Of a stretch of 64,000 bases of DNA, positions 9,291-64,000 are shown one piece after another. The stretch covers positions 62,001 through 126,000 of the forward strand of contig NZ_CP091789.1 of NCBI RefSeq assembly GCF_022024055.1, written 5' to 3'. This DNA comes from Prevotella sp. E2-28. Its GTDB lineage: Bacteria > Bacteroidota > Bacteroidia > Bacteroidales > Bacteroidaceae. The notes beneath the pieces are model-generated. The model was not told the DNA's origin. It worked only from the letters and a program-made list of their open reading frames with translations, and searched no databases. Every line of letters starts with the position of its first letter. The first letter of the stretch is position 1. A program made the position numbers and the translations under genes.

Positions 9291-9305
9291 TTCGCTTTTT
9301 TGCCG

Positions 9306-9313
9306 CGAAAGTA
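9306..9313 (-). promoter_or_regulatory. Putative promoter -7 box upstream of traJ
   Basis: Minus-strand TACTTTCG followed by CGGCAAAAAAG lies just upstream of the traJ ATG at 9290. It matches the Bacteroidetes consensus TAnnTTTG at seven of eight positions and is almost identical to the box before the OmpA-like gene at 35917-35924. Confidence 0.5.
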
Positions 9314-9390
9314 CTGCTAAATCCAGAAACAGTCAGTAACAAGAAATTTTGGTTCATGAATTAACACCTCAGAAAACAGAAATAGCAATT

Positions 9391-46470: not shown

Positions 46471-47586
46471 TTACCAGTTAGGAGGTAACACAATATTCTC
46501 TAAATCATGTGCCTCTTTAAACAGCGGAGAGATTTCATCATCAGCAAATCCGGCGATGCCGCAGCCAATGCGAGTCACGAGGAAGGTCAGTTCGGGGTGC
46601 TCCTTGGCAAACTGGATAAACTCGTCCACATACGGACGAATGGTTTCTACCCCACCCTGCATCGTTGGGATGGCATAGCTCTGACCTTGCAGACCTACGC
46701 CCTGGCCCATGATGGCTCCAAACTTGCGGTAGGCGATATACGCCGCACCACCGCCGTGCATACCTTTGAGATTGCTGCCAAACACAAAAATTTCGTTTGG
46801 CTGCAGTTCCGTGATAAACTCTGGTGTAGTCCTTTTCTGTTCCATAACTTCCTCTCTGATAAAGTCCATATCCTCGCAAACCATCGATTCTGCCATGTCT
46901 GCCATAGAACCAGACATAGGCGGTGCAGGCATCGACATCCTGGCTTCGCCCATCGTAGTCTCTCTGCGCAGGATTGCCATTTCGTCCATCACCTCCGGCA
47001 TATCCAGATCCATGTCGAAGTTCTTCCTGAAATACGGCACGATGATCTGCTCCTTCAGTTTCTTATACTTCTGCGAGATAGCTGACGGGGTCATCCCCAT
47101 CTGCGCTGCAATCTCCTTCGACTTAAATCCCTGCAACAACAGCATGTCGATAATCAGCCGTTCCTGACGGTCTAGCGGAGCATGGTCACATACATCCTCT
47201 ACCATCCGATTGAACTGCAATCGTAGGTCGCTGGTCACGTCGAATGACATCAGGTAGTCCTCGAACGTGATGCTGCCATACTCCTTGCGATACCATTTCA
47301 GTGCGTCGAGTACCACATAGCGGAACCCGTTGATGAGCCACGTCTTCAGACTCACATTCGGTGAATGATCCTCCAGCGGTTTCCAGTCGTGCTCCATCAG
47401 GTAGAGCGCATACTGGTGAGCCAGCGACATGAAGTCCAGGTTCTCCTTCTCGCGCAGCTGATACCGCTGGTCGAAGATGTTATAGCCCACCTGACAGTAC
47501 CCGTAGAAATACTCACGGATAATGTCGGCATCACCCTCGCGGAAACCGCTCAGAATCTCTTCGTCTGACAGTCGCTGATAGTACAT
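46471..47586 (-). CDS. Sigma-70-like factor fused to an A1S_2505 (macro-like phage-protein) domain
   Basis: 371 residues. Residues 1-190 resemble a group-4 sigma factor: region 2-like helices (EILSGFREGDADIIREYFYGYC, LKTWLINGFRYVVLDALKWYRKEYGS) and region 4 (LDRQERLIIDMLLLQGFKSKEIAAQMGMTPSAISQKYKKLKEQI). A Met/Pro-rich linker covers about 200-255. The C-terminal domain (262-371) reads PNEIFVFGSNLKGMHGGGAAYIAYRKFGAIMGQGVGLQGQSYAIPTM and FLVTRIGCGIAGF, the A1S_2505 family of phage-linked small proteins, whose loops resemble ADP-ribose-binding macro domains. Sensing of a nucleotide ligand to control transcription is possible but is inference. Confidence 0.78.
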   Translation of the reverse strand: MYYQRLSDEEILSGFREGDADIIREYFYGYCQVGYNIFDQRYQLREKENLDFMSLAHQYALYLMEHDWKPLEDHSPNVSLKTWLINGFRYVVLDALKWYRKEYGSITFEDYLMSFDVTSDLRLQFNRMVEDVCDHAPLDRQERLIIDMLLLQGFKSKEIAAQMGMTPSAISQKYKKLKEQIIVPYFRKNFDMDLDMPEVMDEMAILRRETTMGEARMSMPAPPMSGSMADMAESMVCEDMDFIREEVMEQKRTTPEFITELQPNEIFVFGSNLKGMHGGGAAYIAYRKFGAIMGQGVGLQGQSYAIPTMQGGVETIRPYVDEFIQFAKEHPELTFLVTRIGCGIAGFADDEISPLFKEAHDLENIVLPPNW

Positions 47587-47602
47587 AACTCGATATTTTT
47601 GG

Positions 47603-47610
47603 CGAAATTA
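47603..47610 (-). promoter_or_regulatory. Possible promoter box of the sigma/A1S_2505 fusion gene
   Basis: Minus-strand TAATTTCG followed by CCAAAAATATCG, 16 bases before the ATG at 47586, matches TAnnTTTG except for C at the seventh position, like the boxes at 9306 and 35917. Confidence 0.4.
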
Positions 47611-47711
47611 CGAAAAATTTCTCATACTTGCTTAATTTTTCTGCAAATTCTTCTTCAAAGAGATAAAAGACGTCTTGAATTGAAGTATTCACCATTTAAA
47701 AAGTTACGATT

Positions 47712-48362
47712 ATGAAAACGAACGAAGTTAAGACTAAGAGAGTTCACAACCTGATTATTGTCGATGAGAGCGGTTCTATGGAAGTTATCCGCAAGCAAGC
47801 CTTTGTTGGAATGAACGAAACCCTGCAGACCGTCCGCAAGATGCAGGAGAAGTTCCCCGACCAGGAGCAGTTCATCACCCTGCTCACCTTCGATACTGGC
47901 CACACCACCTGGCATTACGACAACCAGCCCGCTTCGCAGACTAAAGATTTGGACTGGAAAGCCTACTGTCCCGGTGGCGGCACACCTCTCTACGATGCCA
48001 TCGGCAAGGGTATCTCCAAGACCAATGCCCAAATTGAGGACGGTGACCATGTGCTGGTGACTATCATCACCGACGGCGAGGAGAACAGCAGCGAGGAATG
48101 GACGCTGAAGATGATCCGCACGATGATTGAGAAGCTGAAGAAGCAGAACTGGACCTTCACACTCATCGGCACCGACAACCTCGATGTGGAAACCATGGCC
48201 CACTCCTTCGCTATCGACGAACACTTGGAGTTCCAACAGGACGATGCCGGCACCAAGGCCATGTTCGCCCGTGAGCGCCGCAGCCGCGAGCGCTATAACT
48301 GCTGCGTCGCCGAGGATGCCGCCATGCCTACGGGTTCGTTCTTCAGTGAAGAAGAAAGCTAA
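47712..48362 (+). CDS. von Willebrand factor A domain protein
   Basis: 216 residues, mostly one VWA domain. The metal site (MIDAS) is complete: DESGSM at residues 19-24, the Thr in GGGTPLYDA and the Asp in IITDGEEN. The order of strands and the TFTLIGTD segment match TerY-like bacterial VWA proteins. The C-terminal 40 residues are charged and end in EEES. It is cytoplasmic and divergent to the sigma/A1S_2505 fusion gene (125 bases apart). VWA proteins usually assemble with a partner, and the partner here is unknown. Confidence 0.85.
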   Translation: MKTNEVKTKRVHNLIIVDESGSMEVIRKQAFVGMNETLQTVRKMQEKFPDQEQFITLLTFDTGHTTWHYDNQPASQTKDLDWKAYCPGGGTPLYDAIGKGISKTNAQIEDGDHVLVTIITDGEENSSEEWTLKMIRTMIEKLKKQNWTFTLIGTDNLDVETMAHSFAIDEHLEFQQDDAGTKAMFARERRSRERYNCCVAEDAAMPTGSFFSEEES

Positions 48363-48371
48363 GAAGGAAGG

Positions 48372-48398
48372 AGCGACTAACCATCGCAGTTAGTCGCT
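48372..48398 (+). terminator. Hairpin after the VWA gene
   Basis: A perfect 10-bp stem (AGCGACTAAC, 48372-48381, with 48389-48398) and 7-base loop lie 9 bases after the VWA stop. No long T run follows. It is probably a terminator between the convergent VWA and Nudix genes. Confidence 0.6.
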
Positions 48399-48511
48399 TC
48401 TCAAAAAGCGTTCGCTATTATTCAGCGTCCGAGAAGCCTTGCAGGAAATCCAACGAACAAACGTTCACGAATAAGTAGCAATGCCCACGCGCTGTAGTAG
48501 AGTTTCACAAC

Positions 48512-48952
48512 TCACTTTTTTTGTGTCTTTTCAAAAAGAGCGATAGCATCCTGCATGATGTCATAATGATCGAATGCCAAATGTGGCAAATCCGACAGTG
48601 GCCACCATTCAGCTTTGGCAGCATCATCTTGGCCAGTGACAGCAATAGGTTCATCGATGATGGCCAGATAAGCGACGGTTATTGTTCTCCCTCTTGGGTC
48701 ACGGTCAACCTTGGAATATGCTCCAATCTGATGAACATCCGACAGTCGAAGTCCCGTCTCTTCCTCCAGCTCCCTGATAGCACACTGTTCCGTAGTTTCA
48801 TCCATGTCCATGAAACCGCCGGGGAATGCCCATGCTCCCTTGAAAGGTGGATTCCTCCGCTAGATAAGCAGCACCTTGGGCTCTGCCTCCCTCGTTATTA
48901 CGATACAGTCAGCCGTAATAGCCGGTCTTGGATATTTGTATGTATATGCCAT
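48512..48952 (-). pseudogene. Nudix hydrolase interrupted by an in-frame amber codon
   Basis: Reading on the minus strand from ATG at 48952, the frame gives a normal Nudix start (MAYTYKYPRPAITADCIV...PKVLLI), then TAG at 48862-48860, then continues RRNPPFKGAWAFPGGF and the Nudix box G-x5-E-x7-REL-x-EE-x-G (GGFMDMDETTEQCAIRELEEETGL) to the stop at 48512. The codon sits where relatives usually have Lys or Gln, so a single base change explains it. The 99-codon frame after it starts inside the box and cannot make a full enzyme. It starts 10 bases after the Sir2 stop, which suggests a Sir2-Nudix pair acting on NAD-derived metabolites. Confidence 0.82.
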
Positions 48953-48962
48953 AATCGATAAA

Positions 48963-49661
48963 TTACAATTCCTTGAATGCCTCCAGCAACATCTTCATGC
49001 CATCCGTGGCTGTGGTTTTGAAGTGGGTGAAGCCCAAATGCGTGCATTGCTCCATCTCTCCTGGATCAATTACGAACTTTGGCACTTCATGGTGGGCATA
49101 GTTGATGAACCCTGCTGCCGGATAGACCTTCAGCGAAGTGCCAATGACCACGAAGATGTCGGCCTTGCTCACGATGTCAATGGCGACATTCATACTGTCA
49201 ACATACTCGCCAAACATCACAATATAAGGCCGCAGTTGCGAGCCATCCTCTGCCTTATCCCCCACTCTAATTGGTGTTGTCAGCGGATATTCCTTCACGC
49301 ATATCGTGCGGTTATCCATCGAGCAGACTTTGCTCAGTTCCCCATGCAGATGGATGACCCGCGTCGAGCCAGCCCGTTCATGCAAGTTATCCACATTCTG
49401 CGTGATAACCGTCACCTCATGCTCTTTCTCCAGCTCGGCTATCATGCGGTGAGCATCGTTCGGTTCCACCTCTGCCAGCTTTTTCCGCCTCCAATTATAG
49501 AAATCAAGGCACTTCTGCGTCTCATTATAGAGGGCATCCGTACTTGCCAGGTGAGCCCACTCCTCGTTAGTCCACATGCCATCCTTTCCACGGAATGTAC
49601 TCAATCCGCTTTCGGCACTAACGCCCGCACCAGTCAGAAATACTATATGTTGTCGAGTCAT
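48963..49661 (-). CDS. Sir2-family NAD-dependent protein deacylase (CobB-like)
   Basis: 232 residues. NAD-binding motifs GAGVSAESGLSTFRG (residues 10-24) and TQNVDNLHERAG, catalytic His in IHLHGEL, and IGTSLKVYPAAGF are all present. The zinc-ribbon part is reduced: only two cysteines (VCSMDNRTIC) occur where most sirtuins have two CxxC pairs, as in some Bacteroidetes forms. It removes acyl groups from lysines, consuming NAD. It lies in the long minus-strand run behind the cysteine peptidase (36 bases) and before the broken Nudix gene. Confidence 0.9.
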   Translation of the reverse strand: MTRQHIVFLTGAGVSAESGLSTFRGKDGMWTNEEWAHLASTDALYNETQKCLDFYNWRRKKLAEVEPNDAHRMIAELEKEHEVTVITQNVDNLHERAGSTRVIHLHGELSKVCSMDNRTICVKEYPLTTPIRVGDKAEDGSQLRPYIVMFGEYVDSMNVAIDIVSKADIFVVIGTSLKVYPAAGFINYAHHEVPKFVIDPGEMEQCTHLGFTHFKTTATDGMKMLLEAFKEL

Positions 49662-49697: not shown

Positions 49698-50366
49698 TCA
49701 TTTCTTCATAATAATGATTGCTTCATCGAGATCTATCATGCAATTAGTGTCAGAATCATACCTGTAGCCATATCTCTTTCTTGGCTCTTTATGAAGATTA
49801 AGTATCCCATTCCAGAGCGCGTATGTCGGGGAGTCACTTCCTGGATCTAATGTGAGCAAATCTGATAAGATTCCATATTCATCCTCTATATAACCTACAG
49901 CAACCACCCAATGAGCGTAATTCTGTCCGACAAGACCCAAAATAACAGGTATGTTGTCATCAATCCAGTTTTTCGTGATTTCTGCTATATCATGGTTACC
50001 GGCTTTGCTGGCACATTGGACGGTTACACGACTACCGTAATTGTCCATGAGTATTCTTTGAATCTTATCGGAAGTTAGCCCTTCACGATATAAACCTTCT
50101 TCATTTAATGCCTTGATTAGTTTCCACTCAGAAGTTCTTTTATCTATAGGATTGTCAGAACAAATGTTTTCTGCTTCAAAAACTCCAAGAATATTTAATA
50201 CCATTGCAACAGAATATGCGCCACAGGCACCATCTAAGTCACCTTGTTTATAATGAGCCTTTTGCCATGAACGACCTGATGGCTTCTTACACATGAGAAC
50301 ACCATCTCTCAGCTGAAGTCGATTGATAACTTTAAATTGCATCATATTATTTAGTTTATTCGTCAT
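49698..50366 (-). CDS. Papain/C39-like cysteine peptidase, third gene of a tightly coupled trio
   Basis: 222 residues without signal peptide. QGDLDGACGAYSVAMVLNILG (Cys48 after a Gln) is a papain-like active-site helix. YAHWVVAVGY supplies the His (near 150), followed by LLTLDPGSD with the Asp (near 173). This is the C39/papain-like fold used in bacteriocin maturation and in several toxin or effector activation systems. Its start overlaps the stop of the PLD-like gene by 4 nt, so the two are translated together. It might process the neighbouring proteins; that is inference. Confidence 0.75.
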   Translation of the reverse strand: MTNKLNNMMQFKVINRLQLRDGVLMCKKPSGRSWQKAHYKQGDLDGACGAYSVAMVLNILGVFEAENICSDNPIDKRTSEWKLIKALNEEGLYREGLTSDKIQRILMDNYGSRVTVQCASKAGNHDIAEITKNWIDDNIPVILGLVGQNYAHWVVAVGYIEDEYGILSDLLTLDPGSDSPTYALWNGILNLHKEPRKRYGYRYDSDTNCMIDLDEAIIIMKK

Positions 50367-52969
50367 CTGTTGGAGGGTTTTACCTGTAATAATCTCTGAG
50401 AGTCATAGAGGAAAAGATAGTCTGGACAATACTCTCCTCTTGATTTGTTGTACCCATAGGCCATAGTGAGAGGAACGGCCATGTTAGGCTTTATACGTTT
50501 GAGCTGAACATACCCAAATTTGTCTGACCAGAGAATATCTCCATCAGGATATAATAGTTTGGCATCAGCAAGCAGAGCCACATTGTCATGAATATACTGC
50601 TGCATACTTGCCTTATTGAATCCGTCCAATTCTTGAATAGCCCTGTCTAACCGTTTGAAGACATTGGTAGGGGTGTTTTCGTCCACCTTCACACCAAAAG
50701 CCTTTTGTATTGTCAATAAGGATGCAACTTTATAATTTGATTCCCAATACCGGTAGTCTCTGTTACCCTCATTTATCCAGTCGCATATAGAGAATACGGC
50801 AAGACAAAGTTCAAAGGAGTACTGTTTATATGTCTCATTCTTTTTCTGGATAACACCATTCTCTTCTGCTAGCAGTGTGGATTTCATCAGATACAATGCA
50901 AACAGAGAGGTCAGGCGATAAAAGTATTCGGTAGCCGTTTTGCGATACAAAGCAGACCTCTTCAATTCAATCAGTGACCGTTCTTTGCTTTCACCACTCT
51001 CAATAATATATCTATAGCTGAACGTTCTATAAAGGAAGAATACGGCAGTCATGTATTTCTTCAGAGTTTCCATCATAGGAATTTCATTTTTGACTACCTT
51101 ATCGGATAGGGCAATACTTTCAAGATGAGCGATGTATTTATCAAACATCTTGTTTATCCGCTGTTCAGTTTCCGAAGCGTTCTTTTGAGTTCTGACAGCA
51201 GTCTTCTGAGACTTGTTTTTCTCTCTACCTTCAGATTTCCGCACATCTTCCGTTTCTTCTTCGTCGATATCCTCATCCTCCTTCTCCTTTGAGCTTCGAG
51301 AGATATACGAAATCATACTGTCAAAGAGCATTGAGGATTGGGACGCCGTTTTTTCACCCTTACGCATACCTCTGTCACCCGTTATACCAGTGCCGTCATC
51401 TTTCAAGTAATCTGCCACAGAACTGAAGGTATAACCCTCTTTATCCTCTGTCATTTTATCAACAATGGTCTCAGCACTGCTCTTTGCTGATAGCTTAGTT
51501 TCTGCATCGTTCAGTATTTGCTCTATGAAACGTAGAACCTCGCCATTTATGAACTTTCCGGCTTCGATTTCTCTATATCTTTTCCGCTTATATTCAGATT
51601 CTGGAGAAGGGTTGTTTACTTCCATAATCTCAGTGGGGATAACAAATTGACGGTTGGAGATCAATTCTCCTTTGCTATTTGTTATTTCTACATAGAGCGG
51701 ATTAACTGCGTCTTTGAATATCCCACTTATTCTATTGTTCCCAGGCTTAATTTTTTTGTGAACCGTTTGTAGCGCTTTGCGGTTTCCTGAATAGAAAGTT
51801 ATAATAACATCAACCGCATCTGCAGAATTTTCTATTGTGAGGTCATAGTTGTTATACAAGTATGCAGCTTCCTTTACCCATAGGGTTATTGGTGCATGAC
51901 TACTTGTAGCATCTTGCGTTTCTGTCTGCTTGATGTCATTTGTACTGATTGGATCTGTCAGAACAAAACCGGTCATCTTGAAATAGTCTGTCGTTGGAGA
52001 CTTGAATCCTACACTGGCTTCATGATTTGTTGGCAAAACACCAGGTAAGCCAAATGCTGCTACTGAAGCGTTAGCACTTCCGCAAAGTATAAAGTGATAG
52101 GTCTCTCCTTCGAAGAAAAAGCATTTGGAATGGAAATAGTCCTGATATCTTCTCTCAGATACCTTGGTTATCTTATCCCATTTGTATAGCTTAACATAAT
52201 CAGGAATGCTCCCTAGCCTTGGCAAAGATCCAAATCCTTCTTCTATAATCAGCCGAATCTCTTGGGGCTTATATTGGTTATACAAAGCCTTTATGAGTTC
52301 CGCTTTGCTATCATAGAATGGCGACATGACAGTTATTGTCTTTATCGTGTCATTACCTATCCATTCCCTGCATTGATCATATAGAGAGATTGACTGGTTC
52401 GTGAAGAATCGTATGCTTTCTTCCCCAATGAAATGCTCTGTAACAGATTCGTCATAGTCACTCCTGAGAAGGTCACAGTTCTCTTCAATCGAGTAGATAA
52501 TATTGTCTGCCTCTTCCCCAAGGCTCTGATAGAGATTCTTTAGGTAGCTCCAAACATTCCGAATGAAAGGGTATGCCGGGCTTTTAATACTTTCAACCAT
52601 GACAGGTGACCAAACCTCAAGGTTCCTTCCATGTCCCATGACCGTTAGGTTTCCCGATCCAACCAGAACCAAGACGCTCTCCCTGCCTGCATAGAAATGT
52701 ATTTTGGGATGGAAAGCCCCCTTCATCTTATAGCCATGCAAGCTGAAATCCAAGGGTCTTTTTCCGCTGAAAGCTTTGCTGAACTTCAGGAGTTGATCTG
52801 AAAGGCAATCAGAATCAACCAAAGCAGAAACGAAATTGATCCCCTTTGCCGATAAAGACCGCAATAGTTGTATTTCCCAATAATAGAGGTTTATTGAGAA
52901 CGAAGTCATCAAGGCAGAGTGGAACTTCCCAGATGGAATCTCTTTTATAAGCTGTCTCTGGTCAATCAT
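50363..52969 (-). CDS. Large protein with two HKD (phospholipase D/nuclease) motifs
   Basis: 868 residues. The N-terminal 320 residues form a PLD-like pair: HKD 1 FHPKIHFYAGRESVLVLVGSGNLT (H87, K89, GSGN 104-107) and HKD 2 FHSKCFFFEGETYHFILCGSANAS (near 277-300). A beta-rich middle (about 350-460) is followed by a charged, Lys/Glu-rich linker (about 560-620) and an all-helical C-terminal part. Such PLD proteins are usually nucleases in restriction or defence loci. Both ends overlap neighbours by 4 nt. No helicase or ATPase motif is present, unlike DISARM or type III-like systems. Confidence 0.78.
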   Translation of the reverse strand: MIDQRQLIKEIPSGKFHSALMTSFSINLYYWEIQLLRSLSAKGINFVSALVDSDCLSDQLLKFSKAFSGKRPLDFSLHGYKMKGAFHPKIHFYAGRESVLVLVGSGNLTVMGHGRNLEVWSPVMVESIKSPAYPFIRNVWSYLKNLYQSLGEEADNIIYSIEENCDLLRSDYDESVTEHFIGEESIRFFTNQSISLYDQCREWIGNDTIKTITVMSPFYDSKAELIKALYNQYKPQEIRLIIEEGFGSLPRLGSIPDYVKLYKWDKITKVSERRYQDYFHSKCFFFEGETYHFILCGSANASVAAFGLPGVLPTNHEASVGFKSPTTDYFKMTGFVLTDPISTNDIKQTETQDATSSHAPITLWVKEAAYLYNNYDLTIENSADAVDVIITFYSGNRKALQTVHKKIKPGNNRISGIFKDAVNPLYVEITNSKGELISNRQFVIPTEIMEVNNPSPESEYKRKRYREIEAGKFINGEVLRFIEQILNDAETKLSAKSSAETIVDKMTEDKEGYTFSSVADYLKDDGTGITGDRGMRKGEKTASQSSMLFDSMISYISRSSKEKEDEDIDEEETEDVRKSEGREKNKSQKTAVRTQKNASETEQRINKMFDKYIAHLESIALSDKVVKNEIPMMETLKKYMTAVFFLYRTFSYRYIIESGESKERSLIELKRSALYRKTATEYFYRLTSLFALYLMKSTLLAEENGVIQKKNETYKQYSFELCLAVFSICDWINEGNRDYRYWESNYKVASLLTIQKAFGVKVDENTPTNVFKRLDRAIQELDGFNKASMQQYIHDNVALLADAKLLYPDGDILWSDKFGYVQLKRIKPNMAVPLTMAYGYNKSRGEYCPDYLFLYDSQRLLQVKPSNR

Positions 52970-54501
52970 TGCTGCATCAGTATTTGGGTTCCACGTTCAG
53001 TTATGGCATAGCATTCACCGTTTCTCTCAATCCACTTGATATCTTCTATGTATTGCAGGACATTCTGTAAACGCGGTGAAGTCCTTATCGGGTCTGGCCG
53101 TCTCAGTTGCCATATTAAGCCATCGTCAACCATATAGTTATGCACAATACCCTGACCTATAGATGACTTGGAATATGAACTACGCAGGTGTTCATTGATA
53201 GCCGAATAAATACAATCCTCGGCAAACGACCAGTCACATTTCTTGTTCTCATCGCCAACCAGCCTAATCAAAAGTGAAGGACCGAAACCCGGATGATGAA
53301 CGTCATATATGTCATTCGCATATTCCAACAACTTGTTAAGATGCTTGTTAGTTGCTTTGTAAAGGGCTACCAGCAATCTTGAAGCCACATATACTACTGC
53401 TCCATAAGCCTTCTCCTTATAGCAAGATTGCAATTCTTCGTAGAGTTCATATATGCCGTAAGTGTTAATAGTTGGATTATCGTAATCGTTGTACCCCTTT
53501 TCAAGTCTGTCAAGCACAGCATCCAGTGGCTGTGGTTCCTCTGTGGTAGAATACAGCAGGGCAAAGTGGTGTCCTTCGTATGCGGCATGAGAGAGCTCGT
53601 TCAGCTCATACAAGAACCACGAAAGTTGTTCTTCTGTCACTTCCAGATTAGAATCCAATGCAGAAAGGAAATTACTTTTCAGAAACGACAGAACGAATTG
53701 CCGTCTATCAACAGTTGCCCCCTCATTCTGAATATACTTCAGCAGTAGTTTGATGGTCGATATTCTATGGCTTATATCGTTACCTGTTATATCCTGCCGT
53801 TCTGGTTTGCTGAATATGCTTTCGTATTCTGCCAATTCCTCCTTATTATCAATAAGATGAAGGGCCAGACATTTGAATTCTGCAAGTTTATCTCTGCCAA
53901 TTAGTCCAGAACTGATAGAATCCCAGAACAAATCCTCTTGTTTTTTTGAGAGTGACTGACGAAAGATTTCGCACAAGCGCTGTCCTTCAGACGTAACCCT
54001 ATAAGTGAGATGGTTGGCGTCAGGTAGGAATATCAGTTTCAATTGGGTAAGAACTCCAATGAAATACTGGCCAAATACTCCTAAACCGTGTTGCCAATAG
54101 ACTTTTGGTTTGTTTGCAATGTCTGCACCTTCTGCTAAGTTCAGCACCTCTGCATTGACGTTTCTTTGGGCAAATATACTTCCGCTAACACCATTGACCA
54201 GAGGATAATTATATTGCATAGCGTAAGCCAGCAACAGTTCGCCTCGTCTGAGATATTTGATTTGCTCCTTGGGATTGTCAATCTTTGATGGGTTGGTTGC
54301 CTGCAGCCTTTCTGCAATAAACGTCATCAGCCAACAGAAGAAACCATTATACCGAATCCGCACGGTCATGTTTGTAACGCCTTTGATCATGTTGTCATAT
54401 ATGACCACGCTACTATTCTGTACAGCCAAAGGGTCTCGACCAGTTTTGCTTGTCGTTTCAGCTCCCCAGAACGGGAATGGTTTATTGTTTGCTTCGTACA
54501 T
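52966..54501 (-). CDS. Protein of unknown function, first gene of trio with PLD-like and peptidase genes
   Basis: 511 residues, not recognised. It opens with FPFWGAETTSKTGRDPLAVQNSSVVIYDNMIKGVTNMTVRIRYNGFFCWL, then is mostly helical with several Tyr/Leu-rich segments. The last 45 residues (LQNVLQYIEDIKWIERNGECYAITERGTQILMQQ) look like a winged helix. No ATPase or nuclease motif is seen. The stop overlaps the PLD gene start by 4 nt. It may be a sensor or a scaffold for the PLD protein. Confidence 0.7.
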   Translation of the reverse strand: MYEANNKPFPFWGAETTSKTGRDPLAVQNSSVVIYDNMIKGVTNMTVRIRYNGFFCWLMTFIAERLQATNPSKIDNPKEQIKYLRRGELLLAYAMQYNYPLVNGVSGSIFAQRNVNAEVLNLAEGADIANKPKVYWQHGLGVFGQYFIGVLTQLKLIFLPDANHLTYRVTSEGQRLCEIFRQSLSKKQEDLFWDSISSGLIGRDKLAEFKCLALHLIDNKEELAEYESIFSKPERQDITGNDISHRISTIKLLLKYIQNEGATVDRRQFVLSFLKSNFLSALDSNLEVTEEQLSWFLYELNELSHAAYEGHHFALLYSTTEEPQPLDAVLDRLEKGYNDYDNPTINTYGIYELYEELQSCYKEKAYGAVVYVASRLLVALYKATNKHLNKLLEYANDIYDVHHPGFGPSLLIRLVGDENKKCDWSFAEDCIYSAINEHLRSSYSKSSIGQGIVHNYMVDDGLIWQLRRPDPIRTSPRLQNVLQYIEDIKWIERNGECYAITERGTQILMQQ

Positions 54502-54513
54502 AGTCTATTATTG

Positions 54514-55092
54514 CTATGAGAATTCGATTTTACCCGTTTCTAAATACTTTTCAACCAATTCATGGAATACAGGATGAAAAACAACATGGGTAGGAGAACC
54601 AGTATGGAAAACCATACCATTATCACTATATAAAAAGTGAAACTTTTGGTTCCAAAAATCCAATTCGTATTGACTTAATTCAAGAACATATTGATATCCA
54701 GGGGCTTCCCCAAATGCCACGTATCGTTCTGTGACCTTTTCACCAGGATGCCTTGGATGTTTGTAAAGTCCAACTGCAGTATTCAAACAACTATGCAGGA
54801 AAATCTTGGCTGCCTCTTGTATTTCCATTTCTTTTTTTCTCTGTTCTTGTAGAATTATGGCTTCTTCTTGTTGTTGAGACAGTGTGATACGTTTATTCTT
54901 GTCATAGTTACCTTTCAACCAAATCCCAGCTTGGATAATAAGAAATAAAATACAACCTATAACAGTTGGCCATCCCCATTCCTCATGAAAAACGGTGAGG
55001 TAAAAGGTTAGTCCCACAGTAAAGCATATCACTATTGGAATTAGATAATGCTCTAATATTGTTGTAATGTCAATTTTGATGTCCGGCATCAT
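54514..55092 (-). CDS. Small membrane protein with cytoplasmic C-terminal domain
   Basis: 192 residues. Two N-terminal membrane helices (IPIVICFTVGLTFYLTVF and WPTVIGCILFLIIQAGIWL) are followed by a charged coiled coil (LSQQQEEAIILQEQRKKEMEIQEAAKIFL) and a globular end. It is not recognised. It lies between the zinc-ribbon protein gene (26-base gap) and the 511-residue protein gene (12-base gap). Membrane proteins of this kind often act as effectors in defence operons, but nothing in the sequence proves it. Confidence 0.65.
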   Translation of the reverse strand: MMPDIKIDITTILEHYLIPIVICFTVGLTFYLTVFHEEWGWPTVIGCILFLIIQAGIWLKGNYDKNKRITLSQQQEEAIILQEQRKKEMEIQEAAKIFLHSCLNTAVGLYKHPRHPGEKVTERYVAFGEAPGYQYVLELSQYELDFWNQKFHFLYSDNGMVFHTGSPTHVVFHPVFHELVEKYLETGKIEFS

Positions 55093-55118: not shown

Positions 55119-57860
55119 TTATCTAAATCTATATGTATCCCTAATTTCACGCTCTTTGTCAAAATTCCGCTTGCATGTTCTACAGCCTTTATATGTCGTG
55201 CCATCTTCTTCTGTAATGATCTCAACAGGATTCCCACATTGAGGGCAAAAAAACTCCCCTTTGTCATTATGTCCATGACCTAACTTCTCTCTAATACGCT
55301 CTGGTATAGGTTTCTTAGCGAGAATATATCTTTGAGCTTGACGCTCATACTGAGCATCATCGCAGCATGAAAGACAAGTAGGACAGATGTACCATCCATT
55401 TGGACATTGTTTGCTATCCCTCGAATCTATCAAACCTTTCTTACATTTGAAGCAATAGCTCAGATAGATAGGCTTGTTGTATTCACTGCAAGTCGGATTG
55501 ATGCATGAATAATAATTATAACGGTTATAACCACTACTTTTATCAGTGTACATCAAGTGGCCACAGTTTCTACATTTTAATCTTCTGAATTTCTTCATTA
55601 CCCTGTTGGCACATGCGATGAACTCTGTTACAGTCACGTCTGGCTCATAACCAGCTGGTGTCTCGTGGAGTTTTGGAAATCCTATTATTTCTATCATATG
55701 ATATAGTGAATAATAAGACCATGATGTACAGTTGGCTAAAATCTGACTATGTAAGTTGTTATGAAAGCACTCTAGACCCCGACACCAAAAATATGGCATT
55801 TCTGTTGCCCTATTTGTCGCTTCAGCTAGTCTTGGTGCACAGAATGGTTTAAAATCGCCAAGATGTTGACATTTCAAAAATTCGATTTGTGTATCCGATG
55901 GATTATCAGGAAGAGAACCTTTAAAATAATACAAACCTAACATCTTACGATGTAGCTCGTTGTCATATTTCACCTCGAAGTAGGAATTGTTTATTATATC
56001 TTGATTCAATTCCTGCTTTAAAGTGTTAATTACGCGTTTTCGTATTTCCTCAGACTCTCTTCTTCTGAATTCTTCTTTTAGGGCATCGTCATTATTGAGT
56101 ATTTGTTCATGACGTAGTGATTTCAGAATTCCAAATACATCGAATTGCATTCCTACAATAGCTGATGATTGCGGGATAAACCTACTGAATATCGGCTTAG
56201 AATAATTCAGTAACAGTTTGTATTTCCTTACATCCCTTGAAAAAACGACAAACCTGTCCTTTTCTGCTTGCTCACATTGTTTAGCAAGTGAACGGATGTA
56301 ATTAGCAAGTATCTCAGTCGATGTTTGGTCAATATCAATAATAATAGTTTCTGGTCGAGATTTACGAATATCTACTGCTGGAAGTGGTTGCTTCAGGAAA
56401 CAGTTTAGCCAAACAAAATCTGTATCATATACGACCCACTTATTTTCAAAGGGTCTTTTAACTGTACAATTAAACTTGCGTTCTGTATATTCCTTACCTG
56501 TTTGTTCATCCTTGATCACACGCGTACTAAAACATTTTATCTTTTCTTCATCCGTTAGGGGACGTTTCTCATCAGCATAGCCACATGCATCATATGTTAG
56601 ATGAGACCGGGTATTCAAAAAATCCAAAATGGTAGTCTTTAGATTATCTTCTGTAAATTTCTCTTCATCAAGCTCACAAACTATACTGTAATCTATAAAA
56701 CCTTTGAAATCGGAATTATAAACAGCCCCCCCATGACATTGAGGAAGGAATTTTTCCATACCTAGTGAAATAGATGGGTTGGCTATATCGCAACGCATCA
56801 TTGCGAAATCAAGAATTCCATCGAAAGATTGAAATGTCTGACCATTTGAATTAAAAAGGGTGATAATGCAATCACAAAGTAAAGGAACTGCCAAGTCAAT
56901 TGCCATGTCTGGTGTTTCAAGGCAATATCTGTATCTAATAAAGTCTACAAATGGGTTGTCCTTAAATTCTTCTACAACTTTCGGGTCAAATAATACTCTA
57001 TTAAGACGTATGTCATGGAAATATCGTTTAATAATATCTAGTTGAATAGCATTAGAAGAAATAGAGAATAATGAACGTAGCGAAGTAACTTCTATTGTCG
57101 CATTCTCATTATGAAGCCATCTGTAGAGTATAAGTAATAGATTATTGGTATTATCCTCTATAGACCTAGTTACTGACTGTTGGAAAACATTGTCAACAAG
57201 AACGTAGTCAACCAGTTTGAACAGATTCCAGTATGCCTTTTTCTCCTCAATATCAGGTAAAACATGTGAAACTGCTTCTGTTATTACTGAAGGAACATAA
57301 ACATTATAACGATATCCAAAATTGGCCAATGCTTTTTGAACTTGTTCCTGTTTGTATTTAGATAAACATCTGCTAAATAGACTAAAACCTTTTCCTATAA
57401 TAAAGGGATGAGACTGAGCATCATAGATGTTAAGTGCTCTTGTCAAGGCAGTACTATCCCATTTGCAATAATTCAACATCCATAACAGGTGTAAATATGG
57501 ATATCTTTCATCAGCACTCTGCGAACGGATAATAAAGCTGTTGATAACTAATCTCCAATCGTCTTGCTTGGTTGCATTTATCTCATGTATTTCAAATGAG
57601 ATTGTGCTATTTTTCGACTGGTCATTGTCTTCTGTTTGGTTTACTAATTCTGCAACAACCAGCGCCATACCCCTCTCATTACCGATTATTTGCTCCTTTG
57701 AGATGTTCCCATTAAAATCTTTATTAATGGGCTCCCATGAAATATTCTCAACGTAATCTCCATTCCAATCTGTATAAGAATGGTCCACCCGATGAAGAAA
57801 CAAGAGAGGATTCTTGATCAACTCTTCGTATCTGTCTTTATTTGTTGAGAGTTTAGGCAT
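55119..57860 (-). CDS. Large zinc-ribbon protein directly downstream of hsdR
   Basis: 913 residues, not recognised. The first 700 residues are alpha/beta and helical with no motif I can name. The C-terminal 170 residues carry several CxxC pairs: CRNCGH, CINPTC, CFKCKKG, CPTCLSCC, CPQCGNP and CRTCKRNFD, so at least three zinc ribbons. The gene starts one base after the hsdR stop (57862), so it belongs to the restriction operon. Zinc ribbons suggest nucleic-acid or protein binding. It could be an accessory to restriction or an independent defence factor. Confidence 0.72.
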   Translation of the reverse strand: MPKLSTNKDRYEELIKNPLLFLHRVDHSYTDWNGDYVENISWEPINKDFNGNISKEQIIGNERGMALVVAELVNQTEDNDQSKNSTISFEIHEINATKQDDWRLVINSFIIRSQSADERYPYLHLLWMLNYCKWDSTALTRALNIYDAQSHPFIIGKGFSLFSRCLSKYKQEQVQKALANFGYRYNVYVPSVITEAVSHVLPDIEEKKAYWNLFKLVDYVLVDNVFQQSVTRSIEDNTNNLLLILYRWLHNENATIEVTSLRSLFSISSNAIQLDIIKRYFHDIRLNRVLFDPKVVEEFKDNPFVDFIRYRYCLETPDMAIDLAVPLLCDCIITLFNSNGQTFQSFDGILDFAMMRCDIANPSISLGMEKFLPQCHGGAVYNSDFKGFIDYSIVCELDEEKFTEDNLKTTILDFLNTRSHLTYDACGYADEKRPLTDEEKIKCFSTRVIKDEQTGKEYTERKFNCTVKRPFENKWVVYDTDFVWLNCFLKQPLPAVDIRKSRPETIIIDIDQTSTEILANYIRSLAKQCEQAEKDRFVVFSRDVRKYKLLLNYSKPIFSRFIPQSSAIVGMQFDVFGILKSLRHEQILNNDDALKEEFRRRESEEIRKRVINTLKQELNQDIINNSYFEVKYDNELHRKMLGLYYFKGSLPDNPSDTQIEFLKCQHLGDFKPFCAPRLAEATNRATEMPYFWCRGLECFHNNLHSQILANCTSWSYYSLYHMIEIIGFPKLHETPAGYEPDVTVTEFIACANRVMKKFRRLKCRNCGHLMYTDKSSGYNRYNYYSCINPTCSEYNKPIYLSYCFKCKKGLIDSRDSKQCPNGWYICPTCLSCCDDAQYERQAQRYILAKKPIPERIREKLGHGHNDKGEFFCPQCGNPVEIITEEDGTTYKGCRTCKRNFDKEREIRDTYRFR

Positions 57861-57861
57861 A

Positions 57862-60800
57862 TTAAATCATTCCTCTTATTTTGCGGTCATACATTTCATT
57901 AAACAAAATGTTTTTGAAAAGAGTATTTGCTCGATCTTCTGTTAATTTGTTATATAACTCGTATTTGCTCGTAATAAAATCGAGCAATTCAGAATCTACT
58001 GTTTCATCAAATTTGGCTTTTACATCATCACGAGCATTCTGCGGAATAAAAAATGCCGCCAAATCCGCGTTATCATTTATTCGTTGACGAAGACGAGCAA
58101 GCTCTACACGGTCTTCTTCAGTAAAATCAATACCAAATGCCTCGTTTAAATTCTTAATAATGTTTGAAAGCCAATCATATTCAGGAGGAGTAGTTGGTTG
58201 AGATTCTCCTGGCTTCATACCTTCCATTTGGGTGTCACCAGAAACCAATTTCAACTCCTGTGTACTTATATACTGAATTTTATAGCTCTGTAACTGACTC
58301 TCACTAAGCACATCGTATGGTAAGCTTTCTTTCTTGTATGGCATCTTTTTAGACACTGCAAGGCAGAAAGGAGCCAACTTCCCTAAATCAGGGTCATGGA
58401 ATGTTATAATCTGACTGAGGAACGTAAACAGATTGTAGTATTGACGGCATGTCTTCCTGAATTTATCCTGCATGTCTGTGTCGAGATTTTTAATAGCTCT
58501 GTCACATACTTCATCAATAACTTCATTTACCTTCATGTTTATTTCCGTCTTATTGCTTAGGAAATAGCGGTTGAAGAGATTTACATCGTCTTCAGTAAAT
58601 ACTCCAAAATTGCGAAGTTTGCTTTGCACATCATATAGCGCATTGGGATCAGTTTCATCTTCCTGAGCCATCTTGTTTTTACCATAGTAAAACTGGAATG
58701 CAGAAAGGATATCCTCTGGATCATTAACGAAGTCAAGAACAAATGTCTTTTCCTTACCTCGCTTGCAGCGGTTAAGACGAGATAGTGTCTGAACTGCATT
58801 TGCTCCACCAAGTTTCTTATCAACAAACATTGTCTGCAGCAATGGCTCATCGAATCCAGTTTGGTACTTGTTAGCCACAATTAGTATACGGAATTGAGGC
58901 ATCTTTAAGGCTTCAGGAATAGAAACTTTTCCTGGCAAATTGTTCATGGAAACTTCTGTGTATTCCATGCCTGTATCAGCATCTTTTACCGTACCAGAGA
59001 ATGCAACAAGTGCACCATAAGGAAGATGCATTTCCTGCATTATGCTATCGAACTTTTGTTTGAAACGTACAGCATGGAGACGCGAGCGTGTAACTAACAT
59101 GGCTCGCGCCTGACCACCAATTTCTTGCGCAGTCTGGCTAACGAAATGTTCAATCATGATTCGAGCTTTACGCTCAATAGCAACGTCTTGTAAATCTACA
59201 TAGCTAGAAAGCAGACGCACTGCGTTCTTTTTATCATATTCTTTATCCACCACTTTTTCATCGCGCACTAATTTATAGTAGCGTTTAAAGGAGGTGTAGC
59301 ATTGCATTACATCAAGAATAAAGCCTTCCTTAATTGCTTGTTCCATAGTGTATGAGTCGAAAGGCTCTTTTGACCCATATTCGCGTTCACAGAAGAGCTC
59401 AACAGTCTTTTGTTTAGGTGTTGCAGTGAATGCAAAGAAAGAAACATTATTCTTACGACCTTTGCTCTGCATGTCACCATATACGAAATCATTAATGATT
59501 TCTGCTATTTTCTCATCGTCATCATTAGCTTTTGCAACAGCTTCATCAAACTTCTCAGCCTCTTGTAGTGAAAGAGCTTTACGCATTTGACGAGCATCTT
59601 CACCTGACTGTGAAGAGTGGGCTTCATCTATAATGACAGCATACTTGCGATCGGGGAACATACGGATGCTATCAGATATGTGAGGGAACATTTGTATTGT
59701 GGTTATGATAATACGCTTTCGACTCTCGATAGCTTTCTGCAAGTCCGTACTGGTGTGTCCATCAGCTTCTTTTTGTTGCCCTACAGTATATATTTCACCA
59801 GGAACAGAGGAGAACTGACGGAAATTTGCCTGTAACTGGTCGTTAAGTACACGACGATCAGTTACGACGATAATGCAGTCGAATAGAGCATTATCGTCGG
59901 TGGCATGTTGGAAGAGGTTGCTGAGACGAAACCCAAGCCATGTTATCGTATTTGACTTGCCTGAACCTGCGGAGTGCTGTATAAGATAGCAATGGCCAGC
60001 TCCTCGATTGTAAACGTCATTTAGAAGCTTATGAACGGCACGACGTTGATGGAAACGTGGAAAGATAAGTGCTTCACTAACCTTATCCTCTAACTGGCGC
60101 TTCTTGGGATTGTATACTTTTTCAGAATCAACTTGGAGTGTTATAAAATTCTGAATCAAATCAAGCAAGTTGTCGCGGCGAAGAATATCACACCACAAAT
60201 ACGATGTGCGGTAACCGGAATCATCCTTAGGTTTAACACCAATATTTGAGTATTCTTCGTTAAATGGGAAAAAACGAGTATGCTCCCCATCTAAATGAGT
60301 AGTCATAAACACCTGTTCGGTTCCCATTGCGAAATGTACCAGTACCCGCTTAAAGTCAAAGAACTTTTCTCCTTTGACTGGACGCTCAGTCATATACTGT
60401 TTAATCGCATTGTGGTGATTTTGCCCAGTCAAAGCATTCTTCAATTCGATTGTGACAACAGGGAAGCCGTTTACGAAGATAACAATATCTATCTCATTGG
60501 TATTATTCTTCGAATAGCGCAATTCACGAACAATCGCAAGACGGTTCTTGCGGTAGTTCTCATCATGCTCTGGAGTCTTATTATTGGCAGGTTTTGTATA
60601 AAGGAGCTTGAATTTGCCAGTAAGACCAGCATTAAACTCTTTCATACGAAACAGAGACAGTGTACCCTGAGGCAACTCCATATTGTTCTTCAGGTGTGCA
60701 GCTGTTGCAAGATGTAGTCGGCTGTTCATTTCAGAGTTTACTCTGTCAATGATATTGCGGATAACCAACGTTTCATCACCCTCAGCTACGTCCAGCATTT

Positions 60801-61017
60801 TTTGATACTGTTCAGGCTGTGTATCTTTTAAGAAAGCAATAAGCTCAGAAACGAGGATGCAGTTATCCTTGTTTTCAGGTTTATTATACTCACTAGCTGG
60901 AATCTCGTGATATTCCATCACAGACGTAGGTTGTCCATTCGCATCCAGTATTGGCTGAGATGTGAGTTGACGGATTATATAATCCTGATATTCTGGCTCA
61001 CTATTAAATCCTGGCAT
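57862..61017 (-). CDS. hsdR: Type I restriction enzyme, restriction subunit HsdR
   Basis: 1051 residues. The N-terminal nuclease domain shows a PD-(D/E)xK site within [20 protein letters not shown] (about 165-190). The superfamily 2 translocase has Walker A [9 protein letters not shown] (near 350), DEAH in [12 protein letters not shown] (near 465), FFAFTATPK, and later [35 protein letters not shown] and TLSRLNR. The C-terminal helical part binds HsdM. It cuts unmodified DNA after translocation. Its length is normal and no break is visible. Confidence 0.95.
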   Translation of the reverse strand: [1051 protein letters not shown]

Positions 61018-61034: not shown

Positions 61035-62384
61035 TTATTTTTTATATGGTTTCCAATCTCTCAAATCCACCTTGCCAGTCACAGCTTCGGTAATGATGGA
61101 GGACTTGTATTTTTTGAGGTCATCAATTTGAGATTGTACATCAGTAATGACACTGCTAAGTTTACATAACTTGGCGTTTACATAGTCAAGAATCCTTTGC
61201 TGCTCTTCGATAGAGGGCACTACAATTGGAAGTAACGAATATTTATCAGCACCAATATTTTGAATAGTGGCTTGAATAAAGACACTATTTTTCCAATTAT
61301 CATATTGGATAGAGTTTGTATATAGGTATAGAAATTCTGGCAAAAGCTTTTCTCCACATTTTGCCTTTATCAAATAACCGGCAAAACAAGCGGCATGATT
61401 TTCGTTAAAAATAAAAGTTTTGCCAACGGTTGCACCACTTCTGGCAAAAAGCACATCACCTTTCTCTAGGAGATAATCATTTGCTTTTTCGGGATCTAAT
61501 GATTTAAAAGTTTCGTCTCTAAGATTACCATATTCGTCTATGTCAGTTATGCGTATATATCTAGGCCAATCAGGATTAGTGGATTCTGCAGATTCATTAG
61601 CACCATATTGAAGTGGTTGAGATAGGAAACGTTTTAGAGAAGAACAATCCCATTTCGCAGGAATCATGCCTAGCCATTCAATACCACTATCTTTCATCTC
61701 AACATCCTTGTCAAGTCCTTTGGTCACAGCCTCACTGATAATGGCAGAACGGTATGCTTTGAGGTCTTCTAGTATCTGTTCCTTTTCTGCAATGGTAGCA
61801 TCAATTTGTCCTACCTTATAATCAAGGTATGATACAATTGTCGTTTGTTCTTCAATTGGAGGAAGTATTACCATTGAATCACTTAATGTGCTCTGAGTGA
61901 CGCTAAACACTTTAACTCCATAGACAGAAGACCGAATTTGGCTCCGCCAACAATCAGTCTTGAACAAATAGGAAAGATATTTGTTATCATTCGATTGAAT
62001 AGATCTTGCTATTATGGAGTGATAACCAGCATATATCAAATAATTATTATCTATATAGACACAATTTCCACATCCCTCCAAATCTTCAGACGTATCAGCG
62101 AAAATGAAGTCTCCTTTGTTAACTTTAGAAGAATTATTACCTTCTATATATGATTTAGGGACATAGCGAAGTAAATGCTGCTCAACTTTTGTGCCTGTAT
62201 TCTGCTTTGAATGAATCTGACCATAGCTTATTACAGGTATGCCTTCTTCAACAAGGTCTGCTTTTGTAATGGACAAACCTCGCCCGAAAGAAAACAGCCT
62301 TTTGAAAGAAACAAGCCTCCATTGACTCGGAATCTTTCCCAGCCACTTGATACCACTATCCTTATATGATTCGTATTGCTTCAT
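61035..62384 (-). CDS. hsdS: Type I restriction enzyme, specificity subunit HsdS
   Basis: 449 residues with two target-recognition domains. Each begins with a repeated stretch (DSGIKWLGKIPSQWR at about 8-22 and DSGIEWLGMIPAKWD at about 232-246). Each ends in a conserved helix (EEQTTIVSYLDYKVGQIDATIAEKEQILEDLKAYRSAIISEAVTKGL and EEQQRILDYVNAKLCKLSSVITDVQSQIDDLKKYKSSIITEAVTGKV). The near-duplicate halves recognise a bipartite target, which cannot be read from sequence. There is no inverted-repeat or second hsdS copy in the window, so no sign of shuffling. A 4-nt gap separates it from hsdM. Confidence 0.94.
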   Translation of the reverse strand: MKQYESYKDSGIKWLGKIPSQWRLVSFKRLFSFGRGLSITKADLVEEGIPVISYGQIHSKQNTGTKVEQHLLRYVPKSYIEGNNSSKVNKGDFIFADTSEDLEGCGNCVYIDNNYLIYAGYHSIIARSIQSNDNKYLSYLFKTDCWRSQIRSSVYGVKVFSVTQSTLSDSMVILPPIEEQTTIVSYLDYKVGQIDATIAEKEQILEDLKAYRSAIISEAVTKGLDKDVEMKDSGIEWLGMIPAKWDCSSLKRFLSQPLQYGANESAESTNPDWPRYIRITDIDEYGNLRDETFKSLDPEKANDYLLEKGDVLFARSGATVGKTFIFNENHAACFAGYLIKAKCGEKLLPEFLYLYTNSIQYDNWKNSVFIQATIQNIGADKYSLLPIVVPSIEEQQRILDYVNAKLCKLSSVITDVQSQIDDLKKYKSSIITEAVTGKVDLRDWKPYKK

Positions 62385-62388
62385 GGTC

Positions 62389-64000
62389 TTAGTCCTCGAA
62401 TATGGATTTAATCATTTCAGCCACCTTTACTTCGCGCTCTTTGATACGTTTAGCAATCTCAGATGAAACCTCCTGTTCGTTAATCTTATAGAAATACTTC
62501 GTGAAGTTGATTTCATAGAGTTTACGCGTCTTAGCAACATCCACCCATGATTCGGGGTCGATGTATGGTAGAACTTCCTCTTGGAAATATTGCTTCCAGT
62601 TGATGTCAAGTGCAATTTTCTCTGTATCACGTTTATTACTGTCAGCTTGTTTCTGACCACGCTTAAGTACTAGCTCATTGTTTTCATCACGCAAAGGTTG
62701 CTCGATGGTAAGTTCATATTGACCAAAATCCTTATTCAGGAATATCTTGGAGAACTCACTCTCCTCAAAGTCCAGATAGAGTTTAAGAATTTGCTGCACA
62801 TGCTCTTCTAATATATCATAACGCTTGTTTCCAAGTGACTTAGCACTCTGCTTACAGAAGTCAACAGCGTTTATAAGCTGTACTTTCCCCTTGCGTTCAG
62901 CAGACTTGTTGTTAGTAAAGAACCACAGATAAGTTGCGATACCAGTATTATAGAAGAGTTCTTTAGGAAGAGCAATAATACACTCCAACCAATCATTTTC
63001 TATTATCCACTTACGGATGTTACTCTCTCCAGAACCTGCACCGCCAGAAAAAAGAGGAGAGCCATTTGTAACTACGCCAACACGGCTTCCTTCGGGTTTC
63101 ATCTTTGAAAGCATATGCTGAATGAACAGTAATTGCCCATCGCTGGTACGTGGAGTACCTGCAAAGAAACGGCCATCTGGGTTTAGACTTTCGTTGATAA
63201 TAAAGTCCTGGTCTTTCTTCCATGTTACACCGTATGGTGGGTTTGCCATAATATAATTAAAGCGAGAAGTAGGGAAGCGGTCTTGGGTAAAAGAGTTGCC
63301 CAACTTAATGTTATCAGCATTCTCACCTGATACCAATGCTTCACTCTTGGCAATAGCATATGATTGCTCGTTTAACTCCTGGCCATAGGTTGTTATGACA
63401 GGTTTCTGTTCCAAATCTCCACAAATATCCTCAAGGATGTATCGCTTACCAACATTAACCATGCCTCCGGTACCACAGGTCGGGTCATAGATAGAACGAA
63501 TGATGCCAGGCATACGCAAATCCTCAGTATCTGGTGTATAGAGAATTGCAGACATCAAGCGTATTACATCACGAGGCGTGAAGTGCTCACCGGCTTGCTC
63601 ATTACTTTGATCGTTAGCAATACGTATGAGTTCTTCAAAAACATAACCCATATCGTGGTTGTCAACAGCTTTGAGTGTAAAGTCTAACTGAGTTATCTCC
63701 TGAATCATACGATAGAGAAGATTATTTCGGTTGAGACGTGCAACAACTTTGTCGAACTGGAAGCATTCGAAGATTATGCGAACCTCTGTATTGAAGCCTG
63801 CCATATAGTTGGTAAAGTTCACAGATACATTCTTCGCGTCATCAAGTAAAGAGAGTAAGGTGTGTTTGGAAGTGTTGTAGAACTTCAGACCTCCAGCTGT
63901 CTTACGAAGTAACGGATCCAACTTTTCCAACGCAATCTTATCCTTGAACTGTTCGTATTGTGCACGAACATTCTTATTATATGGTTCAAGAATGCAGTCC
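62389..64000 (-). CDS. hsdM: Type I restriction enzyme, methyltransferase subunit HsdM (N-terminus outside window)
   Basis: The frame is open to the right edge: before the TTG at 63930 it continues upstream as DCILEPYNKNVRAQYEQFKDKIA, so the true start lies beyond 64000 and the protein is longer than 513 residues. The adenine-N6 methyltransferase motifs are present: AGEHFTPRDVIRLM, SAM-binding DPTCGTGGM, and NPPYG. With HsdS it methylates the target and protects host DNA; with HsdR it forms the restriction complex. It is the most upstream gene visible, so the operon promoter lies outside. Confidence 0.93.
   Translation of the reverse strand, partial: DCILEPYNKNVRAQYEQFKDKIALEKLDPLLRKTAGGLKFYNTSKHTLLSLLDDAKNVSVNFTNYMAGFNTEVRIIFECFQFDKVVARLNRNNLLYRMIQEITQLDFTLKAVDNHDMGYVFEELIRIANDQSNEQAGEHFTPRDVIRLMSAILYTPDTEDLRMPGIIRSIYDPTCGTGGMVNVGKRYILEDICGDLEQKPVITTYGQELNEQSYAIAKSEALVSGENADNIKLGNSFTQDRFPTSRFNYIMANPPYGVTWKKDQDFIINESLNPDGRFFAGTPRTSDGQLLFIQHMLSKMKPEGSRVGVVTNGSPLFSGGAGSGESNIRKWIIENDWLECIIALPKELFYNTGIATYLWFFTNNKSAERKGKVQLINAVDFCKQSAKSLGNKRYDILEEHVQQILKLYLDFEESEFSKIFLNKDFGQYELTIEQPLRDENNELVLKRGQKQADSNKRDTEKIALDINWKQYFQEEVLPYIDPESWVDVAKTRKLYEINFTKYFYKINEQEVSSEIAKRIKEREVKVAEMIKSIFED

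Follow-up and report, generated by a model that had tools for sequence, protein, structure and literature searches.

PrrC, an effector embedded in a type I restriction operon, is released when a phage inhibits restriction, and other embedded defenses have reportedly been described by Payne et al. in 2024. For the Azaca system, passages of two papers count ZacC as a helicase and give a phospholipase D (PLD) domain as present (PMC12278908, PMC10952713). We analyzed 64,000 nucleotides of Prevotella sp. E2-28 (assembly GCF_022024055.1, contig NZ_CP091789.1, positions 62,001 to 126,000; hereafter the window), where three adjacent genes encode a 511-aa ZacA-like protein (52966..54501), an 868-aa ZacB-like PLD protein (50363..52969), and a 222-aa C39/papain-like cysteine peptidase, an optional accessory (49698..50366). 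A first reading made from the sequence alone had taken the three for parts of one new system; it was right about the layout, as the three open reading frames (511, 868, and 222 codons) are on the minus strand and both junctions are ATGA with a 4-nt overlap. The first two genes appear, in our judgment with slightly better than even probability, to form a helicase-free two-gene nuclease cassette, a remote ZacA/ZacB relative that moves as a unit and most likely provides an extra layer of defense. No paper on the 511-aa/PLD pair was among the matches listed in a literature search.

The evidence supports the 511-aa and PLD genes as a tightly conserved two-gene unit. A pattern-based scan for the 511-aa family in a collection described as holding 84,980 species, each represented by a single genome, returned 44 loci (examined loci are labeled with L-numbers), and a PLD-family gene lies directly next in 43 of them; the one exception, L033, stops at a contig end. 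Genes are apparently split in L009, L017, and L030. The pair occurs in Bacteroidota and Pseudomonadota and, with weaker matches, in Actinomycetota. The 511-aa family is found in 7/393 genomes of the window's order, and five other genomes among 251 of its family have the adjacent pair, with PLD proteins 25–31% identical. A tblastn search of plasmids matched 16 records with the PLD protein and 14 with the 511-aa protein, 11 being common to both. The pair is adjacent in all 11 plasmid records that were fetched among the 16 (L147–L149 and L152–L159, one of them unannotated), a set that includes two near-identical Streptomyces records, two from Sphingopyxis, and two from one Polaromonas strain. The first gene in the Streptomyces records matches the 511-aa profile weakly (E = 7.4e-5 and 1.7e-4), and the plasmid-borne genes are mostly annotated as “hypothetical protein.” Across 55 loci with measured junctions, the spacing is at most 30 nt in 53 and a 4-nt overlap in 21. 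Ratios of nonsynonymous to synonymous substitution rates (dN/dS) between the window and L009 are low (511-aa: 0.043; PLD: 0.098, covering one 745-codon piece; C39: 0.046; the SIR2 gene that follows: 0.061), which indicates that the trio genes are under purifying selection.

The single chain of the PLD protein carries two H-x-K...GSxN motifs on a PLD/Tdp1 fold (H87-x-K89...GSGN107 and H280-x-K282...GSAN300). The sequence-only reading had called these HKD motifs; both are indeed present, but they are H-K-N motifs, because A94 and E287 replace the aspartate of a true HKD motif, and H-K-N is the arrangement that we take to be of Tdp1 type. The second triad is kept in 167/167 aligned relatives and the first in 166/167, the exception being the shorter piece of a split gene. 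Domain searches agree with the earlier observation that the PLD protein lacks a helicase or ATPase domain, and returned none in the other two trio proteins. In the structural model, residues 1–356 form the PLD fold, an acidic, low-confidence stretch follows at approximately 489–590, and the C-terminal part is helical; predicted local distance difference test scores are below 50 at 489–545 and 577–583, with an acidic run between the PLD and helical parts. In structural comparison, the scores of phosphatidylserine synthase and PLD3/PLD4 come close to that of Tdp1, and a sequence search of the PLD family against solved structures yielded no trusted relative (best E = 0.57). In L009 (11533–14102), the PLD gene is present as two overlapping open reading frames, either an assembly error or a real break.

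For the 511-aa protein, the model predicts a winged-helix DNA-recognition fold, plus a C-terminal winged helix-turn-helix (PF14947). The winged-helix reading rests on VIA-align structure comparison; Foldseek alone gave no reliable match for the model, a sequence search of the family against solved structures gave none, and the protein was without a match in the phage collection. VIA-align also matched residues ~275–478 to transporters, which we judged to be a common helical arrangement and rejected.

The pair is frequently associated with type I restriction. As the sequence-only reading had stated, the trio is downstream of type I restriction genes, and the same-strand run extends from hsdM onward and is longer than first noted (hsdM-hsdS-hsdR-913 aa-192 aa-511-868-C39-SIR2); neighboring genes overlap by 4 nt at the closest and are 36 nt apart at the widest, the latter between C39 and SIR2 (48963..49661). 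All nine genes are on the minus strand. HsdR, a superfamily 2 (SF2) helicase (57862..61017), and the specificity subunit HsdS (61035..62384) were identified by domain and PADLOC searches, and HsdM (62389..64000), which extends beyond the window end and is 581 aa in full, by a domain search and the DNA beyond the window. Upstream of hsdM, beyond the window (L160, 4205–9032), genes for a 334-aa protein and an ATPase-like protein of 588 aa come first, then a WYL regulator and a GIY-YIG protein, both as read by eye, before hsdM. When the window HsdM, HsdS, and HsdR were used to probe all regions at a single threshold, a type I subunit was found near the pair in 19/44 loci vs. 0/40 control regions (Fisher's exact test: P = 4.7e-7), the loci being not fully independent and of unequal length. 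As controls, 20-kb regions at two preset positions were taken from each of 20 genomes in the phylum of the window. A helicase panel gave 17/44 vs. 0/40, where 8 of the 17 are self-hits since 8/11 queries were taken from the pair loci themselves. A regular expression for SF2 helicase motifs (3/44 vs. 2/40) was discarded because it missed known HsdR proteins.

This association invites an alternative that we consider unlikely, though it fares best among the rivals, namely that the pair is a fail-safe on the type I enzyme, either driven by HsdR as a motor or kept silent by the Hsd complex until a phage inhibits restriction. The 19 loci with Hsd genes nearby speak for it, as do the positions of the pair: in L025 and L032 it is flanked by hsdS and hsdR, one small gene separating it from hsdS; on the Myroides plasmid pFM-G13 it sits directly between the two; and in L018, L030, L033, and L052 it comes directly after hsdR. 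That the pair is so often located within type I operons points to co-regulation and perhaps to a role as a guard. However, pairs with neither an Hsd gene nor a panel helicase, and with 2 kb or more of flank on either side, occur in L012, L017, L019, L020, L023, L027, L038, L044, and L045, among others, and the second copy in the window's own genome lies among housekeeping-like genes, as judged by eye. A check of gene order across genomes and outside restriction loci, which had been proposed at the outset, thus found the order of the pair kept also without hsd genes, and we argue from these loci that the pair can act alone. A fuller version, to which we give marginally less credence, would have the 511-aa protein license the PLD nuclease once HsdR is blocked or the Hsd complex disabled by a phage, with C39 and the sirtuin adding proteolytic and NAD-dependent control in one sublineage.

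The pair is a thinly but widely scattered mobile unit. The own genome carries a second pair on its large contig (L003, 9874–14012), with 83% identity in the PLD protein and 80% in DNA, and C39 is absent beside it; this pair adjoins a REP/IS200-type transposase as read by eye (8367–9389). DNA similarity to the window stops at the two pair genes in L003 (80%), L010 (91%), and L016 (90%). In L077 (81% over the pair), on a contig classed as viral, a second, separate block of similarity lies further downstream, and in L009 (89%) the similarity spans the pair through SIR2, the upstream genes there being a DNA methylase and a ResIII helicase. Plasmids with the pair are mobilizable or conjugative in 12/14 cases from the 511-aa search and 9/16 from the PLD search. 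These plasmids and the viral-classed contig would also fit a pair that serves the mobile elements themselves, for instance in phage- or plasmid-borne competition or stabilization, and not host defense. We regard this as improbable, as the link with restriction operons fits defense better, and defense genes are commonly carried by mobile elements.

The C39 peptidase is an occasional extra gene and not a third core part. Among the 38 of 44 loci in which the sequence continues for 0.7 kb or more beyond the PLD gene, it follows the pair in two (L009 and L013), each time with SIR2 next, and is absent in 36; it is also absent from 11/11 plasmid loci. The C39 family occurs in 4/393 genomes of the order; two of these also have the 511-aa family, and the two families are side by side only in the own genome. 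The papain-like Cys-His-Asp set that the sequence-only reading had noticed is present (Q41/C48/H152/D174) and intact in the window, L009, and L013, and the protein matches PF13529 (Peptidase_C39_2) with 19.5 bits, under the cut-off of 24; PF13529 is precomputed for P0241, which is 99% identical. Over 26 relatives, the catalytic columns hold Q in 26, C in 21, H in 20, and D in 26; in five, Ser and Gln stand in for the Cys and His, and in another one Pro replaces the His. The C39 profile matched the solved structure of Alr0975 weakly (E = 0.03), and the phage collection gave one weak C39 match. Matches of the profile to designed tetratricopeptide repeat proteins (~21 residues, E down to 1e-8) were rejected as spurious, with no stretch passing alone. 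The protein identities between the window and L013 (511-aa: 61%; PLD: 54%; C39: 60%; SIR2: 77%), together with the dN/dS values, indicate that C39 and SIR2 are old companions in that sublineage and under purifying selection.

Relatives of C39 also exist without the pair, which goes against the trio as a unit. Genes with the catalytic set intact are found between hsdM and an 880–901-aa gene that is hsdR-like by eye (L067, 8519–9175; L068, 9160–9816; L076, 10001–10660, the last on a contig classed as viral); the gene of a close relative overlaps that of a 1191-aa Schlafen AlbA_2-domain protein (L066, 5342–9567), and others are on the viral-classed contigs L073–L075. A second, distant C39-family protein of the own genome (contig C2; L069, 8962–9663; E = 1.2e-19) is beside a 426-aa protein. 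The distribution of C39 vs. the pair rules out an obligate trio, and the original proposal of a three-part system with the cysteine peptidase as activator of the PLD nuclease is very improbable: its C39-PLD ATGA overlap, the same gene order in L009 and in the divergent L013, and the conserved peptidase are outweighed by the rarity of C39 beside the pair and by SIR2, whose presence after C39 in all three C39 loci makes the trio incomplete and the rare extended unit a set of four genes instead of three.

We return to the helicase-free cassette as the preferred account, for which the computed basis is the conservation of the pair, its sharp boundaries, the restriction link, the conserved catalytic residues, and the predicted folds. 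The 511-aa protein would bind DNA through its winged helices and serve as the recognition or sensor subunit for DNA or a DNA state. It may form a complex with the 868-aa double-motif PLD protein, a putative nuclease that would be placed, licensed, or kept in check by it. The cassette would travel between type I operons, other restriction loci, plasmids, and at least one viral-classed contig, and would most likely cut invading DNA or, once triggered, host DNA, as a restriction-like or abortive effector against phages. One sublineage appears to have gained the C39-like peptidase and the sirtuin, which may tune the cassette.

A 192-aa protein with no assigned function (54514..55092) is encoded 12 nt upstream of the pair, and its slot is taken by different proteins of 191–286 aa in L009, L010, L013, L014, and L016, with a T5orf172 domain in L010 and DUF4357 plus a sub-threshold GIY-YIG match in L013. 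The 913-aa protein (55119..57860) may contain zinc ribbons, judging by its C-terminal cysteines (the DZR match, at 14 bits, is under the cut-off). Its relatives occur in 5/200 other genomes of the family, three of them partial, and a plasmid search with it returned no match. In L150 and L151, a relative follows a GHKL-type ATPase gene and a 290–299-aa gene (one weak iSTAND match), which looks like a separate three-gene module. Downstream of SIR2 (46471–48811) are a NUDIX gene, a VWA gene, and a sigma-like gene; the block after the pair in L077 (14178–17516) is similar to this region and includes an ADP-ribosylglycohydrolase-like protein, as read by eye. An NAD/ADP-ribose theme around the SIR2/NUDIX block is possible. 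A type IV secretion system coupling protein (PF02534) is encoded at 40570–42759, on the 205-kb contig C2, and the region may accordingly belong to a conjugative element or plasmid.

Should the preferred account hold, the defense repertoire of Bacteroidota, Pseudomonadota, and, more weakly, Actinomycetota would gain a helicase-free Azaca-like system, on plasmids too, and the sharp two-gene boundaries would suggest that restriction operons are docking sites for exchangeable nuclease modules. The pair is also a test case for modules that work alone vs. those that guard a host restriction enzyme.

The sequence-only reading knew of no named system with this combination, which holds in part: PADLOC 2023 models give no match for the window 511-aa and C39 proteins, but the pair is a remote relative of ZacA/ZacB. 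Type I-embedded effectors (PrrC and those of Payne et al. 2024) are similar in that an extra effector lies between or after hsd genes, and they differ in that here a DNA-binding protein and a PLD protein are combined, often without hsd genes. Tdp1 is only 12–17% identical, other PLD enzymes tie with it structurally, and the PLD protein has large extra middle and C-terminal parts and a partner gene. DISARM resembles the locus through DrmC, a PLD protein in a restriction context, with weak DrmC matches in at most 6/23 relatives per model. DISARM was ruled out, with no Drm match, and thus no DrmA or DrmB, among the matches listed for the nine window proteins (for HsdS, the best 25 of 110). The phage defense candidate PDC-M27 of PADLOC has a PLD protein, and its PDC-M27B model matches ours weakly (30.2 bits, residues 80–239), whereas no PDC-M27 model recognizes the 511-aa or the C39 protein and no partner was found for the nine window genes among the matches listed.

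The closest likeness is to Azaca. The PADLOC ZacB model (PDLC03829) matches the PLD protein over residues 82–504 (41.9 bits, E = 1.5e-11) and matches 23/23 of its relatives. The ZacA model matches N-terminal parts of the 511-aa family weakly but in one register (best E = 1.5e-5), in 3/23 relatives, 7/10 chosen relatives that include those three, and 8/8 plasmid relatives; neither it nor Pfam DUF6361 matches the window protein, DUF6361 matches 0/8 plasmid relatives, and hhalign of the family profile against two ZacA proteins produced no significant alignment, unlike the PADLOC ZacA model on distant relatives. Two full Azaca loci (L098 and L099) have the order DUF6361 protein, PLD protein, and ZacC helicase, and our pair shares the A-then-B order without an adjacent ZacC, its proteins being 511 aa vs. 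~410 and 868 aa vs. 610–662. No ZacC match was listed for the window genes or found among 8 helicases neighboring relatives, and the best in the own genome is marginal (E = 8.6e-4). Full Azaca membership is thereby ruled out, and the pair, though not classed as Azaca, may work like part of it.
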